The notes beneath the pieces were generated by a model that saw only the letters and a program-made list of their open reading frames with translations, searched no databases and was not told where the DNA came from. Below, piece by piece: positions 6,430-12,754 of a DNA stretch of 59,930 bases (position 1 is the first letter of the stretch; each line of letters begins with the position of its first letter). The position numbers and the translations under genes are program-made. The stretch spans positions 1 to 59,930 of the forward strand of contig JASGMM010000003.1 in NCBI GenBank assembly GCA_030156435.1. Direction: 5' to 3'. This DNA is from Clostridiales bacterium. Lineage in GTDB: Bacteria > Bacillota > Clostridia > Mahellales > Mahellaceae.

Positions 6430-6528
6430 GTTTTGCTTATCGATGCCATAAGTTATCTTTATTTTACAATCCTGCTGCGATGCAGTATATTGTTTAATAA
6501 TTACTGCATAAACGGAGGATTTATTTTT

Positions 6529-7500
6529 ATGTTAATGGGTTTGATTATGACATTGCTCATCGCACTTGCATCTAAGCTGTTGGTAGGTTTACCTATACTT
6601 TCGGTGATGGGCACTATGGTTACCGCAATAGTATTGGGAATGATATGGAGGGCTGTGATCGGTGTGAAACAACAAGCCCAGGTCGGTATAGATTTTTCGG
6701 CAAAAAAATTATTGCGGTTAGGAATAATATTAATGGGGATACGCCTTGATATATCCGATATATTGGCTGCCGGCCCCAAGGTGGTATTAATGGCCGTATT
6801 GGTAATAAGCTTTGCTATGCTGCTGATACCGCGGTTGGGAAAGCGTTTCGGCGTAGATACGGTATTGGCTGTACTGGTGGCATCGGGTACTGCTATATGC
6901 GGAGCTGCGGCTATAGCCGGCGTAGCCCCTATGGTTAAAGCTGATGAGCAGCGCACAGCGGTATCCATAGCTATCATAGCCATACTTGGTACGGTTTTTA
7001 CTTTTGCCTATACGTTTTTGAATTCTGTCTTCACTATACCTGCATATACATACGGTATATTATCTGGTTCTACGCTGCATGAATTAGGACATGTTATAGC
7101 AGCTTCCTCAACGGGCGGGCAACAGAGTATGGATATAGCATTGATTATAAAGCTCACGCGAGTAGCGTTTCTGGTTCCTGTGGCTTTTATATTGGGCATA
7201 ATATTTATGGACAAAGACGACAGGAAGAATATAGGCTTCAGGGATCTGCCTATACCGTGGTTTGTATTGGGTTTTATAGCTTTTAGTATTATCAATACGA
7301 TTGGTATACTTTCTCCATCGGTCACTGATTTTTTTACTCAGGCCAGTGTGTTTATAATGACTATGGCTATGGCTGGTTTGGGCCTCAATGTCGATTTTAA
7401 TGCTTTTGGCAAAATGGGGGGACGAGCGCTGGGTATGGGAATAATCGGCTCTGTAGCGTTAAGTGTCTTTGGCGGTATCCTAACGATGTTACTGTTTTAA
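6529..7500 (+). CDS. YeiH/UPF0324 family membrane transporter (putative sulfate exporter)
   Basis: 323 residues with about ten membrane segments. Typical family text includes LLRLGIILMGIRLDISDI, VLVASGTAICGAAAIAG and a C-terminal AGLGLNVDFNAFGKMGGRAL. The family is annotated as putative sulfate exporter, although the substrate is poorly established. Start is ATG 6529, preceded by GGAGG (6514-6518); the longer open frame from 6433 lacks a ribosome-binding site. The 3' end overlaps the convergent LysR gene by 12 nt. In enterobacteria yeiH also neighbours a LysR regulator (yeiE), which supports a link but does not prove it. Confidence 0.9.
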   Translation: MLMGLIMTLLIALASKLLVGLPILSVMGTMVTAIVLGMIWRAVIGVKQQAQVGIDFSAKKLLRLGIILMGIRLDISDILAAGPKVVLMAVLVISFAMLLIPRLGKRFGVDTVLAVLVASGTAICGAAAIAGVAPMVKADEQRTAVSIAIIAILGTVFTFAYTFLNSVFTIPAYTYGILSGSTLHELGHVIAASSTGGQQSMDIALIIKLTRVAFLVPVAFILGIIFMDKDDRKNIGFRDLPIPWFVLGFIAFSIINTIGILSPSVTDFFTQASVFIMTMAMAGLGLNVDFNAFGKMGGRALGMGIIGSVALSVFGGILTMLLF

Positions 7501-8412
7501 GGGCATATCGATCAACAATTGTTTCCATTTAATGTTATGTACAAATTCAACGAATACTGCGGATGCTGGAGTTAAAGCTACATGAACAGGTAATAGAGTG
7601 TAAAAATATCGTCTCATGTCTAAACCTTTTATAGTAGCAGCTTTTAAAATTCCGGCTTCAATCTCTTTTATAACTGTACATTGCGATATTATGGAACAGC
7701 CTAAACCAGCCTCTACAATTTCTTTTATGGTCTGAGTGCTGCCCAATTCCATGGCTATATTGAACTGCTGCAGCTCTAAACCGGCTGCTTTCAATTGTAT
7801 TTCCATGATACGTCGGGTGCCTGAACCTGGCTCGCGCAGTATAAGCGGCATACTTTTGAGCTGCTCAAGCGATATGATATCGTCGGAAATCTGCTTATTG
7901 TTTGGTGATATTATAGCCACAAGTTGGTCTTCCATAAACGGCTTAAGCTGTAGATCAGGGTTGTCTACCGGTCCTTCTATCAATCCCACATCTATAGTTT
8001 TATTCAGCATTCGCTGTGATATATCATAGGTATTGGCTACCGAAAGGGCTATATTGATATTAGGATACATACGCTTGAATAATACCAGAGCTTTGGGTAT
8101 CACGTATTCCCCTATAGTTAAACTGGTCCCTATTGATAACGGTCCTGTAATGGTTTCTTTCATCTTCATTAAAGCCTGCTGGGATTGGCCATAAAGCGTT
8201 GCGATTTGTTCGGCATAGTGGCGTAAAACACGTCCGCTTTCGGTTAATGTTACTTCTTTATTGTTTCTTTCGAACAGCTTTGTGCCATAAAGGCTTTCCA
8301 GCGCTTGTATATTCATGCTGACGGCCGGTTGTGTCATATGCAGCGATTTTGCTGCGTTGGAAAAACTGTGATGACGGGCAACAGCTAAAAATATTTCCAA
8401 TTGATTATCCAT
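7489..8412 (-). CDS. LysR-family transcriptional regulator
   Basis: 307 residues. The N-terminal winged helix is typical: LEIFLAVARHHSFSNAAKSLHMTQPAVS, followed by IQALESLYGTKLFERNNKEV. The C-terminal part is a periplasmic-binding-protein-like effector domain (residues about 90-300, with REPGSGTRRIMEIQL), resembling the CysL/YeiE branch. I place the start at the ATG ending at 8412, with GAGGTG upstream in good spacing; a GTG nine bases earlier would overlap that site. It converges on the YeiH-type gene and is divergent from the ArsM-like operon. An ATC-N9-GAT palindrome in the operon promoter could be its binding site. Its true target is therefore open. Confidence 0.95.
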   Translation of the reverse strand: MDNQLEIFLAVARHHSFSNAAKSLHMTQPAVSMNIQALESLYGTKLFERNNKEVTLTESGRVLRHYAEQIATLYGQSQQALMKMKETITGPLSIGTSLTIGEYVIPKALVLFKRMYPNINIALSVANTYDISQRMLNKTIDVGLIEGPVDNPDLQLKPFMEDQLVAIISPNNKQISDDIISLEQLKSMPLILREPGSGTRRIMEIQLKAAGLELQQFNIAMELGSTQTIKEIVEAGLGCSIISQCTVIKEIEAGILKAATIKGLDMRRYFYTLLPVHVALTPASAVFVEFVHNIKWKQLLIDMPLKQ

Positions 8413-8492
8413 AAGGTTCACCTCAAAAAAAGATTTAACAATATTTTATTATATACCCGATCGATTAAGCAATAAAATTCTTTTCTTCATAC

Positions 8493-8581: not shown

Positions 8582-9220
8582 ATGGACATAAAAGAAGCTG
8601 TTAAACAACGCTATGCTGATGAGGCATGTTGCGACGACAATCTAAGCTGCGGCGGTCAAAATGTATACCTGGTCGACTTAAAGGCTGGGCAATGGCTGCT
8701 CGATATAGGCTGTGGCCGTGGCAGCGATGTGCTTAAAGCGGCTGCTCTGGTCGGTGAACAGGGCAAGGCCGTAGGGGTGGATCTCTCGCCGGATATGATA
8801 AAAGCGGCTGCCACAGCAGCGGAGCAACAAGGCGTGAGTAACGTTGAGTTTTATCAAGGCGATGTGGAAGCGTTGCCTTTGCCGGATAGCGTTTTCGATG
8901 CGGTTATAAGCGATTGTGCTATAAATCATGCACTGGATAAAAAGCGCGCTTATGCGGAAATATTTCGCGTATTAAAGCCGCAGGGCGTTATGGTAGTATC
9001 GGATGTGGTGGCGTTGGAGACGCTGCCTCAAGAGATAAAGGATGATCCGGCGGCATGGGCGGACTGTTTCGGTGGGGCCATAAGCGAAGAGGACTATATA
9101 GATGCTGTAAAAGCAGCAGGTTTTGCTGAAATAGATATGCTCAAACGTCGGGAGTACATCAAAAATGGATACAAGATGGCAAGTATTACCTTGAAAGCTG
9201 TAAAGGAGGTGATATCATGA
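8582..9220 (+). CDS. ArsM-like SAM-dependent methyltransferase
   Basis: 212 residues, class I methyltransferase. SAM loop: LLDIGCGRGSDV (residues 39-50); acidic residue after strand 2: VGVDLSPDM. Two cysteines sit where arsenite methyltransferases bind As(III): SDCAIN (Cys112) and WADCFGGA (Cys162). The N-terminus carries a further cluster, EACCDDNLSC (Cys16, 17, 23). This pattern is the arsenite methyltransferase (ArsM) one rather than that of a generic methyltransferase, but a different thiophilic or peptide substrate is possible. Its stop overlaps the start of the 34-residue peptide gene (ATGA), so the two are translationally coupled. No arsR, arsB or arsC gene is present in the window. 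Confidence 0.85.
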   Translation: MDIKEAVKQRYADEACCDDNLSCGGQNVYLVDLKAGQWLLDIGCGRGSDVLKAAALVGEQGKAVGVDLSPDMIKAAATAAEQQGVSNVEFYQGDVEALPLPDSVFDAVISDCAINHALDKKRAYAEIFRVLKPQGVMVVSDVVALETLPQEIKDDPAAWADCFGGAISEEDYIDAVKAAGFAEIDMLKRREYIKNGYKMASITLKAVKEVIS

Positions 9221-9321
9221 AGGCCATAACAAAGCAATCGAACGCTTGCTGCACACAGACCAAGGCAGTAGCTCAGTGCTGCTCCAAGTCTTCCAAGCTT
9301 ATGGCAGGTTGCCACGACTAA
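9217..9321 (+). CDS. 34-residue Cys-rich peptide, putative substrate of the adjacent radical SAM protein
   Basis: A short gene with a very strong ribosome-binding site (AAAGGAGGTGAT, about 9202-9213) whose ATG overlaps the methyltransferase stop. It encodes 34 residues with five Cys: Cys11-Cys12, Cys21-Cys22 and Cys32. The two pairs lie in a weak 10-residue repeat (NACCTQTKAV then AQCCSKSSKL). There is no signal peptide or membrane segment, and Lys residues are plentiful. The SNACCT segment looks like the Cys-pair segment near the N-terminus of bacterial ArsM proteins as I remember them. Position before a radical SAM/SPASM gene, with an attenuator between, suggests a ribosomally made precursor peptide. 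A metallothionein-like chelator is the main alternative. Confidence 0.75.
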   Translation: MKAITKQSNACCTQTKAVAQCCSKSSKLMAGCHD

Positions 9322-9332
9322 TTTACGTTATT

Positions 9333-9387
9333 GCGGCCGGAGCGGCTTCAAAATCATCGCTGCGGCCGCCACCTTTTTAAGTTTTTT
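9333..9387 (+). terminator. Hairpin plus T-run between the peptide gene and the radical SAM gene (probable attenuator)
   Basis: GCGGCCGGAGC (9333-9343) pairs with GCTGCGGCCGC (9359-9369), 10 of 11 positions matching, around a 15-nt loop. T-tracts follow at 9374-9378 and 9382-9387. It lies inside an otherwise continuous operon. The next ribosome-binding site AGGAGG (9388-9393) begins directly after the T-run. A partial terminator here would yield much more peptide mRNA than maturase mRNA, as is common in peptide natural-product operons. Confidence 0.75.
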
Positions 9388-9398
9388 AGGAGGATGAT

Positions 9399-10715
9399 AT
9401 GTACTGGAGCAAATACAATGTTGTGATACCGCATGGAGATAAATATGCTTTAATAAATCCATTGGCAGGCAGCTTTGATATCGCTGATAAAGATGAGATA
9501 CAAGCGCTCAGGGATGGCATAGCCGATATGGATCTTATGGATTATGCTGTATCGCGCGGTTATATATATGATGACGAGCAACAAGAGAAGGCGGCCTTGG
9601 ATGCGGCATACAGCGAATTTCAGGATATAATGGCGACTTCTCAAACCCAGGTATTATTGATACCGACCTATGACTGTAACTTCTCGTGTATATATTGTTA
9701 TGAAAGCGGCGTGGCTGGCAGGAGCGGTATCATAAGCCGCGAGGCTGTAGACGCCTTCTTTGATGATATGGAGTATAGGCTGGGCGATGAAGCGGTTAGA
9801 CCGTATATAACCCTGTTTGGCGGTGAGCCGTTACTCAACCGTCCGGGGCAGAAGGATATTATTGCTTATACAATAGACAAGGCAGCCGATAATGCTTATG
9901 AGATAGCCGTAGTGACAAATGGTTATTATCTGGCGGATTATTTGGATATATTATCTCGAGCACATATAAGGGAAATCCAAGTAACCTTGGACGGGCCGCC
10001 TGAAGTCCACAACCGCCGAAGGCGTCTTAAGGGCGGGCAGGACAGCTTCGATACCATTATGGAAGGCATAGCGGCGGCTATAGATAAAGGCATGCCCATA
10101 AACCTGCGCGTGGTTACTGATAAAGATAATATAAACGATTTGCCTCGTTTAGCGGATATATTGGAGCATAGGGGCTGGTTGGATTTGCCGCCGGAGCGTT
10201 TTAAGGTGCAAATCGGACGCAACTACGATCCGTTTAATTGTTTCGGAAATAACGACAGCCTTATGGACAGGGCGCAGTTATGGGCGGATTACACCGAGCT
10301 ATCCCATCAATATCCTATATTGAAGAAGTTTCATCAACCCGAATTCAAGGGCTTGAAGCAAGCTATCGAAACCGGCAGCATGTACGCGCCTACATTTGAT
10401 ACGTGCCCTGCCGGCAAGAAAGAATGGGTATACGATTTATATGGAGATATATATGGCTGTACCGCAGCTAGCGGTAGAGAGGAATATAAATTGGGAACAT
10501 ACTTCCCTGAGTCGAAGATATTTGAAGATAGATTGGAACCATGGCGCCGTCGTGATATCCTTCACATAGAACAATGTGCATCCTGTCCTGTAGGTATGGT
10601 ATGCGGAGGGGGATGCGGTGTCATGGCTCACCAGAGGTCTGGGGAGGTACTGGCGCCCGATTGTGAACCCATAGCCGATATATGGGAATCGGCATTAAAA
10701 TATTACGATATATGA
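9399..10715 (+). CDS. Radical SAM/SPASM domain protein, putative peptide maturase
   Basis: 438 residues. Residues 1-80 form an N-terminal region of the sort seen in peptide-modifying radical SAM enzymes (YNVVIPHGDKYALINPLAG). The radical SAM cluster motif is CNFSCIYC (Cys93, 97, 100), followed by LFGGEPLL and TLDGPPEVHNRRR. A C-terminal SPASM region (about residues 340-415) supplies Cys ligands for auxiliary iron-sulfur clusters: YGCTAASG, CASCPVGMVCGGGCG and a last Cys in PDCEPI. SPASM enzymes typically modify peptides, for example by thioether formation. The preceding 34-residue Cys-rich product is the obvious candidate substrate. I cannot place the protein in a named maturase subfamily. 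Confidence 0.9.
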   Translation: MYWSKYNVVIPHGDKYALINPLAGSFDIADKDEIQALRDGIADMDLMDYAVSRGYIYDDEQQEKAALDAAYSEFQDIMATSQTQVLLIPTYDCNFSCIYCYESGVAGRSGIISREAVDAFFDDMEYRLGDEAVRPYITLFGGEPLLNRPGQKDIIAYTIDKAADNAYEIAVVTNGYYLADYLDILSRAHIREIQVTLDGPPEVHNRRRRLKGGQDSFDTIMEGIAAAIDKGMPINLRVVTDKDNINDLPRLADILEHRGWLDLPPERFKVQIGRNYDPFNCFGNNDSLMDRAQLWADYTELSHQYPILKKFHQPEFKGLKQAIETGSMYAPTFDTCPAGKKEWVYDLYGDIYGCTAASGREEYKLGTYFPESKIFEDRLEPWRRRDILHIEQCASCPVGMVCGGGCGVMAHQRSGEVLAPDCEPIADIWESALKYYDI

Positions 10716-10728
10716 CAGGAGGCTTAAT

Positions 10729-11997
10729 ATGGTTAGAGAAATAAACGCGGATCAATTTGATGACGTGGTTTTAAAGGCCCAAAAACCGGTTTTAGTGGAT
10801 TTCTACTCGAATGATTGCCCGCCTTGTGCGGCATTAAAACCCATATTCCACCGTTTGGCCGAAGTTTACGGCGAGTATATGGATTTTGTGGAGATACACA
10901 GACAGGACAATAAACAACTTGCACTGAGCTTAAATGTTAAAAGCAGCCCCACGCTATTATTTTACAAAAATGGTCAAGAAGTTAATGACAGGTTGAATGG
11001 CTATATAAGTAAACCGATGTTGCGCAAGGCCATAGAAAATGTGACCGGCGTATCGTTGCTGGATAAACCGCCTAAAGAAATCGACTGCGATGTGCTTATA
11101 CTTGGAGGCGGCCCTGCCGGGTTATCGGCCGCTTTATATGCAGCCCGATCAGGCTTGGATACCGTATTGGTGGAGCAGGACCTTATAGGCGGCCAGGCGG
11201 CCAAAACCTTCATTATAGAGAATTACCCGGGTACCGACGGCCCTATAGAAGGCAAAACTCTCACAGGCCATATGGCTGATCAGGCGCGCAGTTTCGGAGC
11301 GAGATTGGAGGACCTTAAGGAGGTGCTGGATGTAAATCTGGATCCATCGCGCCGTTATGTTCGCACAGAGGATACGCTTTATCGTCCTAAGGCCGTTGTA
11401 ATAGCCACGGGCGCTGAGCCGCGCAAGTTGCCGGCGACAGGTGAGGATGTATTCCGCGGAAAGGGTATACACTATTGTGCCATATGTGACGGGGCTATGT
11501 ACGAAGGCCGGCATGTGGCGGTGATAGGAGGAGGTAATTCGGCGCTGCAGGAGGCTCTATACCTGTCCCGTATAGCCGAGCGCGTGACTATAATACATGA
11601 ATTCGATGATTTTCAGGGTACAAAGATAGCGCAAGAAAAGGTCTTTAGCACGCCCAATATAGATGTCATATGGCATTCACATGCTATAGAAGTACTGGGC
11701 GATGGCATGGTAAACGGCCTTAAGTTGAAAAACCTCAGCAACGGCGAAATAACTTCAATACCGATAGACGGCGTTTTTGTGTACATCGGTACCGCGCCTC
11801 ACACCGATATGTTCAAAGGACAGATCGCCATGGATAAGTACGGTTATATGCTAGCCGGCGAGGATATGAAAACGGATGTAAGCGGTGTATTTGCGGCCGG
11901 AGATGTGAGGCAAAAAGCCGTACGGCAGGTGGCTACTGCTGTGGGCGATGGCGCTATAGCAGCCATAAACGCCGAGAGATATTTAAACGAGGTATGA
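10729..11997 (+). CDS. Thioredoxin-thioredoxin reductase fusion
   Basis: 422 residues with two domains. Residues 1-105 are a thioredoxin fold with active site NDCPPC (Cys30, Cys33), where the usual WCGPC has lost its Trp and Gly. Residues about 118-420 are a thioredoxin-reductase-like flavoprotein: FAD loop LGGGPAGLSA (126-131), redox pair CAICD (Cys250, Cys253), second loop IGGGNSAL (267-272) and C-terminal FAAGDVR. The basic NADPH-binding stretch expected after the second loop (HRRxxFR) is replaced by HEFDDFQGT, so the electron donor may not be NADPH. AGGAGG precedes the start. In the operon it probably supplies or removes electrons at thiols of the peptide or its maturase. Confidence 0.92.
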   Translation: MVREINADQFDDVVLKAQKPVLVDFYSNDCPPCAALKPIFHRLAEVYGEYMDFVEIHRQDNKQLALSLNVKSSPTLLFYKNGQEVNDRLNGYISKPMLRKAIENVTGVSLLDKPPKEIDCDVLILGGGPAGLSAALYAARSGLDTVLVEQDLIGGQAAKTFIIENYPGTDGPIEGKTLTGHMADQARSFGARLEDLKEVLDVNLDPSRRYVRTEDTLYRPKAVVIATGAEPRKLPATGEDVFRGKGIHYCAICDGAMYEGRHVAVIGGGNSALQEALYLSRIAERVTIIHEFDDFQGTKIAQEKVFSTPNIDVIWHSHAIEVLGDGMVNGLKLKNLSNGEITSIPIDGVFVYIGTAPHTDMFKGQIAMDKYGYMLAGEDMKTDVSGVFAAGDVRQKAVRQVATAVGDGAIAAINAERYLNEV

Positions 11998-12001
11998 TGA
12001 G

Positions 12002-12754
12002 ATGGCTATGGATATACAAAACGATGCCTGCGGCAGTGCGAGCTGTTGCTGCCAGGATGAGCAGATAAAGACCACCGATTGCATGGTATGCGGGCATCCA
12101 TTGATCTATTCATCGCAGCCTATCGTTATGGCGTGCAGCTATTGCGGCAAAGAGCAGCAAGCGTATATTTTCTGCCCGGATGGGCATTACGTATGCGATG
12201 AGTGCCATGCCAAGGACAGCCTGACCATTATAAAAGAATATTGCATTTCCAGCACTACTGCAAATCCGATGGAATTAGCTGAAACCATCATGGCCGATAT
12301 TCGCATACCGATGCATGGTCCGGAACATCACGCTCTGGTACCTGCTGTACTGGTGGCAGCTTACAGGAATTTGACCGGTAAGGTAAGCGATAACGATATA
12401 GAGCAGGCGTTGGAGCGAGGCAGCGGCGTGCCGGGCGGAGCTTGCGGTTACTATGGCGCTTGCGGAGCCGCTGTCGGTTTGGGCGTGGCTGTCAGCGTTA
12501 TATTCAAAGCCACGCCGCTTACGCCGCTGAAGCGGTCTCATGCTAACAGGATTACCGCTCGTGCGTTGGATGCCATAGCCGACGACGGGGGTGCTCGCTG
12601 CTGCAAACGCGCGGTAAGGCGGGCGATAGAACAGGCTGTGATCTATTTCAAGGATGAATTGAAAATAGAGTTCCCGCTTTTTGACAGCCCGCATAACTGC
12701 ATTCACAGCGTGCGTAACAGAGAATGCCTGGCAAGATGCGTTTATAAGAATTGA
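12002..12754 (+). CDS. DUF5714 domain protein with Cys-rich N-terminal zinc-knuckle region
   Basis: 250 residues. The first 70 hold 13 Cys: a cluster ACGSASCCCQDE (Cys10, 15-17), then CMVC (27/30), CSYC (45/48), a CPDGH pair and CDEC (65/68), which could form zinc sites. The rest matches my recollection of DUF5714: MHGPEHHALVPAVLVAAYRN, then PGGACGYYGACGAAVGLGVA and a C-terminal part with RCCKR and a Cys-containing tail. Function is unknown. It begins 4 nt after the reductase fusion and ends the operon. The Cys-run near its N-terminus echoes those of the methyltransferase and the peptide, suggesting a shared metal or thiol chemistry. Confidence 0.82.
   Translation: MAMDIQNDACGSASCCCQDEQIKTTDCMVCGHPLIYSSQPIVMACSYCGKEQQAYIFCPDGHYVCDECHAKDSLTIIKEYCISSTTANPMELAETIMADIRIPMHGPEHHALVPAVLVAAYRNLTGKVSDNDIEQALERGSGVPGGACGYYGACGAAVGLGVAVSVIFKATPLTPLKRSHANRITARALDAIADDGGARCCKRAVRRAIEQAVIYFKDELKIEFPLFDSPHNCIHSVRNRECLARCVYKN

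Follow-up and report, generated by a model that had tools for sequence, protein, structure and literature searches.

A cysteine-rich peptide gene and its neighbors

The DNA analyzed here (the window) is a stretch of 59,930 nucleotides. It comes from a Clostridia-type class, from a genome of 2.19 Mb whose order was represented by three sampled genomes in all. We found five consecutive genes, which encode, in this order, an ArsM-like methyltransferase, a cysteine-rich peptide, a radical SAM/SPASM protein, a thioredoxin/thioredoxin-reductase fusion and a DUF5714 protein. The features of this cassette are the following:

8582..9220, + strand: ArsM-like SAM methyltransferase of a cassette-specific subfamily, 212 aa, with Cys23, Cys112 and Cys162
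9203..9213, + strand: Shine-Dalgarno sequence of the peptide gene, AAGGAGGTGAT
9217..9321, + strand: cysteine-rich candidate precursor peptide gene, 34 aa, protein MKAITKQSNACCTQTKAVAQCCSKSSKLMAGCHD
9217..9270, + strand: variable leader-like part of the peptide, residues 1-18, MKAITKQSNACCTQTKAV; its homologs vary in length and sequence
9271..9318, + strand: invariant core of the peptide, residues 19-34, AQCCSKSSKLMAGCHD; equal length in 47/47 loci
9333..9369, + strand: hairpin between the peptide and radical SAM genes, z -3.0
9399..10715, + strand: radical SAM/SPASM maturase, 438 aa, with a predicted RRE-type N-terminal domain in residues 1-80
10729..11997, + strand: thioredoxin/thioredoxin-reductase fusion, 422 aa, a neighbor kept in 42/47 loci
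12002..12754, + strand: DUF5714 protein, 250 aa, C_GCAxxG_C_C-like, present in some loci only

An earlier note had picked out the 34-residue reading frame as a gene that is easily missed, and the 47 homologous loci described below show that it is a real gene. The strong ribosome-binding site that the note described is a near-perfect Shine-Dalgarno sequence, matching the 16S anti-Shine-Dalgarno almost in full. The overlap with the methyltransferase gene is likewise present: the stop codon of that gene and the ATG of the peptide gene share the sequence ATGA at 9217-9220. A near-identical genome differs at 17 positions in the 8.5 kb around the locus. Only one of these differences, at position 9300, lies inside the peptide gene, and it is synonymous by its codon position as derived from the sequence.

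Hairpins similar to that between the peptide and radical SAM genes occur at the same place in most relatives tested, and their sequences are unrelated to one another. The hairpin could possibly be a partial terminator that allows more precursor than maturase to be made; the observations fit such a role and do not prove it. The only Rfam match in the window is a tRNA.

A LysR regulator gene (7489-8421, - strand), beside a gene for a YeiH-type putative sulfate exporter (6433-7500, + strand), is divergent from the cassette. The regulator scores above the cut-off of NF040786, a model associated with selenium metabolism. We did not count a link to selenium through this gene as part of the system, given that it lies beside the exporter gene and that just two further loci have a LysR gene less than 7 kb from the peptide.

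Distribution and conservation of the peptide

The first homologous peptides came from two more loci of the same class and occupy the same place in the cassette, next to radical SAM genes, which is where the earlier note had proposed to look. The family was then built by scanning public bacterial genomes with the maturase and searching with peptide profiles, which yielded 47 loci. These belong to Clostridia, Anaeromyxobacter-type Myxococcota, Bacteroidota, one Leptospiraceae and one Spirochaetia bin. The peptide occurs in 23 of the 193 genomes of the Myxococcota sample (Anaeromyxobacter-type) and in 5 of 247 Bacteroidota genomes, usually as a single copy per genome. The third genome of the window's genus (99% complete, one contig) has no peptide, maturase or methyltransferase gene of this kind. 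No model in Pfam or NCBIfam matches the peptide.

All 47 loci share a 16-residue C-terminal core, A-Q-C-C-[AS]-K-x-S-x4-G-C-H-[DN]-stop. By contrast, the N-terminus is short, variable and mostly Lys-rich, and the whole peptide measures 30-50 aa. The core is under purifying selection across the 47 loci: pS is 0.77 versus a pN of 0.14, and codons at invariant sites drift freely. This comparison of synonymous and non-synonymous change had been proposed in the earlier note, which had also named stop codons or frameshifts in relatives as the observation that would count against a gene. We found neither in any of the 47 loci.

Other details of the earlier description did not hold up. The spacing between the two CC pairs, taken to be a 10-residue repeat, ranges from 8 to 17 in the homologs, and the first pair is missing in 15 of 47. 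Because of this, the segment SNACCT is not a conserved element, and its supposed resemblance to the N-terminus of ArsM is most simply explained by chance. The conserved residues of a metal-binding type are just three Cys and one His, in the pattern C-C-x9-C-H. A metallothionein-like ligand, the other function that had been suggested, is therefore possible but has weaker support than a precursor peptide.

In two genomes the peptide gene is present a second time, as a solitary copy with no maturase nearby (L124:7018-7122 and L125:6824-6937). Downstream of the L124 copy are DUF1847 and DUF302 genes, and the L125 copy is surrounded by nadA, nadC, NifU-like and DUF134 genes. A diverged Cys peptide, with the end SVAFCCSKASLDERDINQCTQCVI, lies in a Desulfobacteraceae bin (L044:4334-4533), upstream of a more distant maturase gene with 34% identity. 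It is perhaps a sister peptide family.

We also considered an origin in mobile elements and rejected it. The peptide was not found in plasmids or phages, plasmids contain only remote relatives of the radical SAM protein, and a maturase scan of viral contigs gave no match.

Partner genes

Within 6 kb of the peptide, the methyltransferase is found in 44/47 loci, and the radical SAM protein and the thioredoxin/thioredoxin-reductase fusion in 42/47 each. The loci that lack partners are the two solitary second copies, and otherwise short contigs or loci in which the gene lies just past 6 kb. In a set of 391 Clostridia genomes, the same 4 genomes have the peptide, the orthologous maturase (at least 46% identity, all others being at most 33%) and a methyltransferase of this subfamily. 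The methyltransferase scores 295-318 bits in these four and at most 192 in the rest. Pairwise distances of the three cassette enzymes correlate at 0.92-0.94, to which shared host ancestry contributes.

In most Clostridia relatives the DUF5714 and maturase genes form one fusion. The predicted model of the DUF5714 protein has no significant match among solved structures, and the domain was not found in the literature searched. No dedicated peptidase or exporter recurs within 7 kb of the peptide; either could be encoded elsewhere. No immunity gene recurs among the neighbors.

Some further families recur near the cassette. A DUF1847 protein occurs at about nine loci in different phyla, and a DUF302 protein at seven Bacteroidota loci. 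Genes belonging to one or the other of these two families lie at L036:2422-2970, L043:11333-11881, L041:5974-6537, L028:1270-2169, L124:7190-7753 and L175:11453-12205. In L025, L026 and L027, a gene resembling NifX-type FeMo-cofactor-binding proteins is directly 5′ of the methyltransferase gene and precedes the peptide by about 1 kb. L025 and L027 also have DUF134 and NifU-like genes near the cassette.

The radical SAM/SPASM protein and related systems

The maturase is predicted to carry an RRE. Its structural model (pLDDT 92) begins with the arrangement strand-strand-strand-helix-helix-helix that is typical of this domain. The closest solved fold is that of CteB, a ranthisynthase that has an RRE at its N-terminus (PMC8326336), to which the model aligns end to end (Z 27.6, residues 4-438). 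The cysteines of the radical SAM and seven-Cys SPASM motifs are invariant. This SPASM domain and the CteB-like predicted fold are compatible with the thioether chemistry of ranthipeptides, whether at the beta or gamma carbon.

The cassette thus resembles SCIFF (CteA-CteB), in which a widely conserved Cys peptide is likewise encoded beside a maturase with an RRE, a radical SAM domain and a seven-Cys SPASM domain. However, SCIFF has six Cys in forty-five residues, whereas the peptide studied here has three invariant Cys, and the cassette adds an ArsM-type methyltransferase and the thioredoxin/thioredoxin-reductase fusion. The window's maturase scores 84.7 bits with the SCIFF maturase model TIGR03974, far below the cut-off of 425. 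Its best NCBIfam match is CefB (NF038107) of the Cys-every-fifth system, at 165 bits against a cut-off of 600, and the peptide does not share the spacing of that system. The protein stays below the cut-off of every NCBIfam maturase model.

A third resemblance is to the selenoprotein-linked metal systems of NCBIfam. The DUF5714 protein is similar to MbdU, the methyltransferase to the DVU_1556 methyltransferase, and permeases near three loci to SaoE, all below curated cut-offs. Unlike in those systems, the cassette genes of the window are ordinary open frames with no in-frame TGA.

The methyltransferase and the arsenic context

The family nearest to the cassette methyltransferase is the arsenite methyltransferase ArsM. 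Cys23, Cys112 and Cys162 are invariant in 45/45 sequences and correspond to the three cysteines with which ArsM binds As(III). The second and third were aligned with ArsM structures; the first lies beyond the phmmer alignment and was assigned by motif only. With the arsenite methyltransferase model NF008823 the protein scores 201 bits, below the cut-off of 263. Judging from its sequence, it is ArsM-type but not an orthodox ArsM, and forms a subfamily of its own that goes with the peptide. ArsM requires thiol reductants, and the thioredoxin/thioredoxin-reductase pair would therefore suit the methyltransferase or the maturase.

ArsP_1-type permeases occur within 7 kb of the cassette in 5 of 41 genomes, where 0.19 would be expected, and ArsR-type regulators are close to the cassette in three loci (L018, L027 and L037). 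The best scores of the neighboring permeases are with models of SaoE and of Cu/Zn efflux, under the cut-off, so arsenic is not singled out. We rejected Acr3 as a neighborhood partner, since no acr3 gene is found within 20 kb of the cassette on the same contig, and the genome of the window has no Acr3. In a different genome (G260), another ArsM-like gene lies about 1 kb from acr3. The cysteines of the methyltransferase, the ArsR-type regulators and the ArsP_1-type permeases suggest a soft element, for example arsenic. We treat the arsenic link as a lead, not a finding.

Possible functions of the peptide

Based on its sequence and context, the 34-residue gene very probably encodes the precursor of a RiPP. 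Such systems are recognized by a short gene for a precursor with a conserved core and a separate leader, next to the gene for an enzyme that modifies it, and by an RRE in the maturase or nearby. The former arrangement is found here, and the latter is seen in the predicted structure. The term "precursor peptide" in the earlier note is thus well supported by the adjacent RRE-type radical SAM/SPASM protein, co-occurrence in genomes, the invariant core, the variable Lys-rich N-terminus and the recurrent 3′ hairpin. With just 34 codons, the reading frame could be suspected of being a chance occurrence, but the probability of this is negligible in view of 47 homologs, purifying selection and the exact C-terminal length; conservation across the 47 loci rules it out.

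Our full reading, which we consider about evenly poised between right and wrong, is that the 34-residue peptide is the precursor of a RiPP family not described so far, and that the product is not a bacteriocin but serves a soft metal or metalloid, with arsenic as the leading candidate, as a small, conserved ligand of the thiolate type or as a cofactor. Residues 1-18 (9217..9270) would serve as the leader, and the RRE would bind this N-terminal part of the peptide. The radical SAM maturase would modify the core, probably in the manner of CteB-type enzymes, by linking the sulfur of a Cys to a residue close by. Thiols may be held in the reduced state by the thioredoxin pair, and the methyltransferase could act on a soft element bound by three thiolates. 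One point against a metal-ligand role is that, if the core Cys were turned into thioethers, fewer thiolates would be left for the metal.

It is possible, but rather unlikely, that the matured RiPP has no metal role and is instead either a conserved peptide of the SCIFF kind or a redox cofactor, for which PQQ and mycofactocin may be compared; the methyltransferase would then have the peptide itself as its substrate. The fold of the SCIFF maturase CteB is the nearest one, the extreme conservation of the core is typical of cofactor-type RiPPs, and the spread of SCIFF in Clostridia has been taken as an argument against an antimicrobial role (PMC8326336). However, methylating a peptide would not need the three As-binding Cys that the ArsM-type enzyme retains, nor does this explanation account for the permease and ArsR neighbors at some loci. 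Less likely still is an unmodified Cys peptide that supplies the methyltransferase with a soft ion, As(III) or another, while the radical SAM protein acts on something else. Three invariant Cys would suit trigonal As(III) binding, and the solitary second copies in two genomes have no adjacent maturase. Yet the peptide and maturase strictly co-occur, the maturase has a predicted RRE-type domain, and no alternative candidate substrate recurs.

A bacteriocin or signaling peptide is very unlikely. This annotation is common among radical SAM/SPASM Cys-peptide systems, but it fits poorly with a core that is near-invariant across phyla, with the mostly single copy per genome and with the lack of a recurring exporter, peptidase or immunity gene among the neighbors. 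Finally, we see a slim prospect that the peptide itself carries the metalloid: the ArsM-type enzyme would load As(III) onto the core with its three thiolates or methylate it there, and the radical SAM protein would bond the peptide to arsenic or lock the arsenic in, to give a ribosomally encoded organoarsenic product.

Conclusions

Systems in which a radical SAM protein is paired with a Cys peptide are already known. What is new to the sources searched is the core motif, together with the presence of an ArsM-type methyltransferase and a thioredoxin/thioredoxin-reductase fusion as partners. No paper on an arsenic RiPP or on the peptide motif was found in the literature searched, which took in a minority of subscription journals. 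The pattern AQCC[AS]KxS-x4-GCH[DN]-stop can be used to search for this gene, which is probably easy to overlook, and the system occurs in a cultivable genus, Anaeromyxobacter. A 16-residue core that is nearly unchanged across phyla, together with a fixed set of enzymes, suggests a small molecule or cofactor of wide use. We know of no earlier link from peptide maturation by radical SAM enzymes to the biochemistry of arsenic. If arsenic is involved, the cassette would provide the first such link, in anaerobes such as Anaeromyxobacter.
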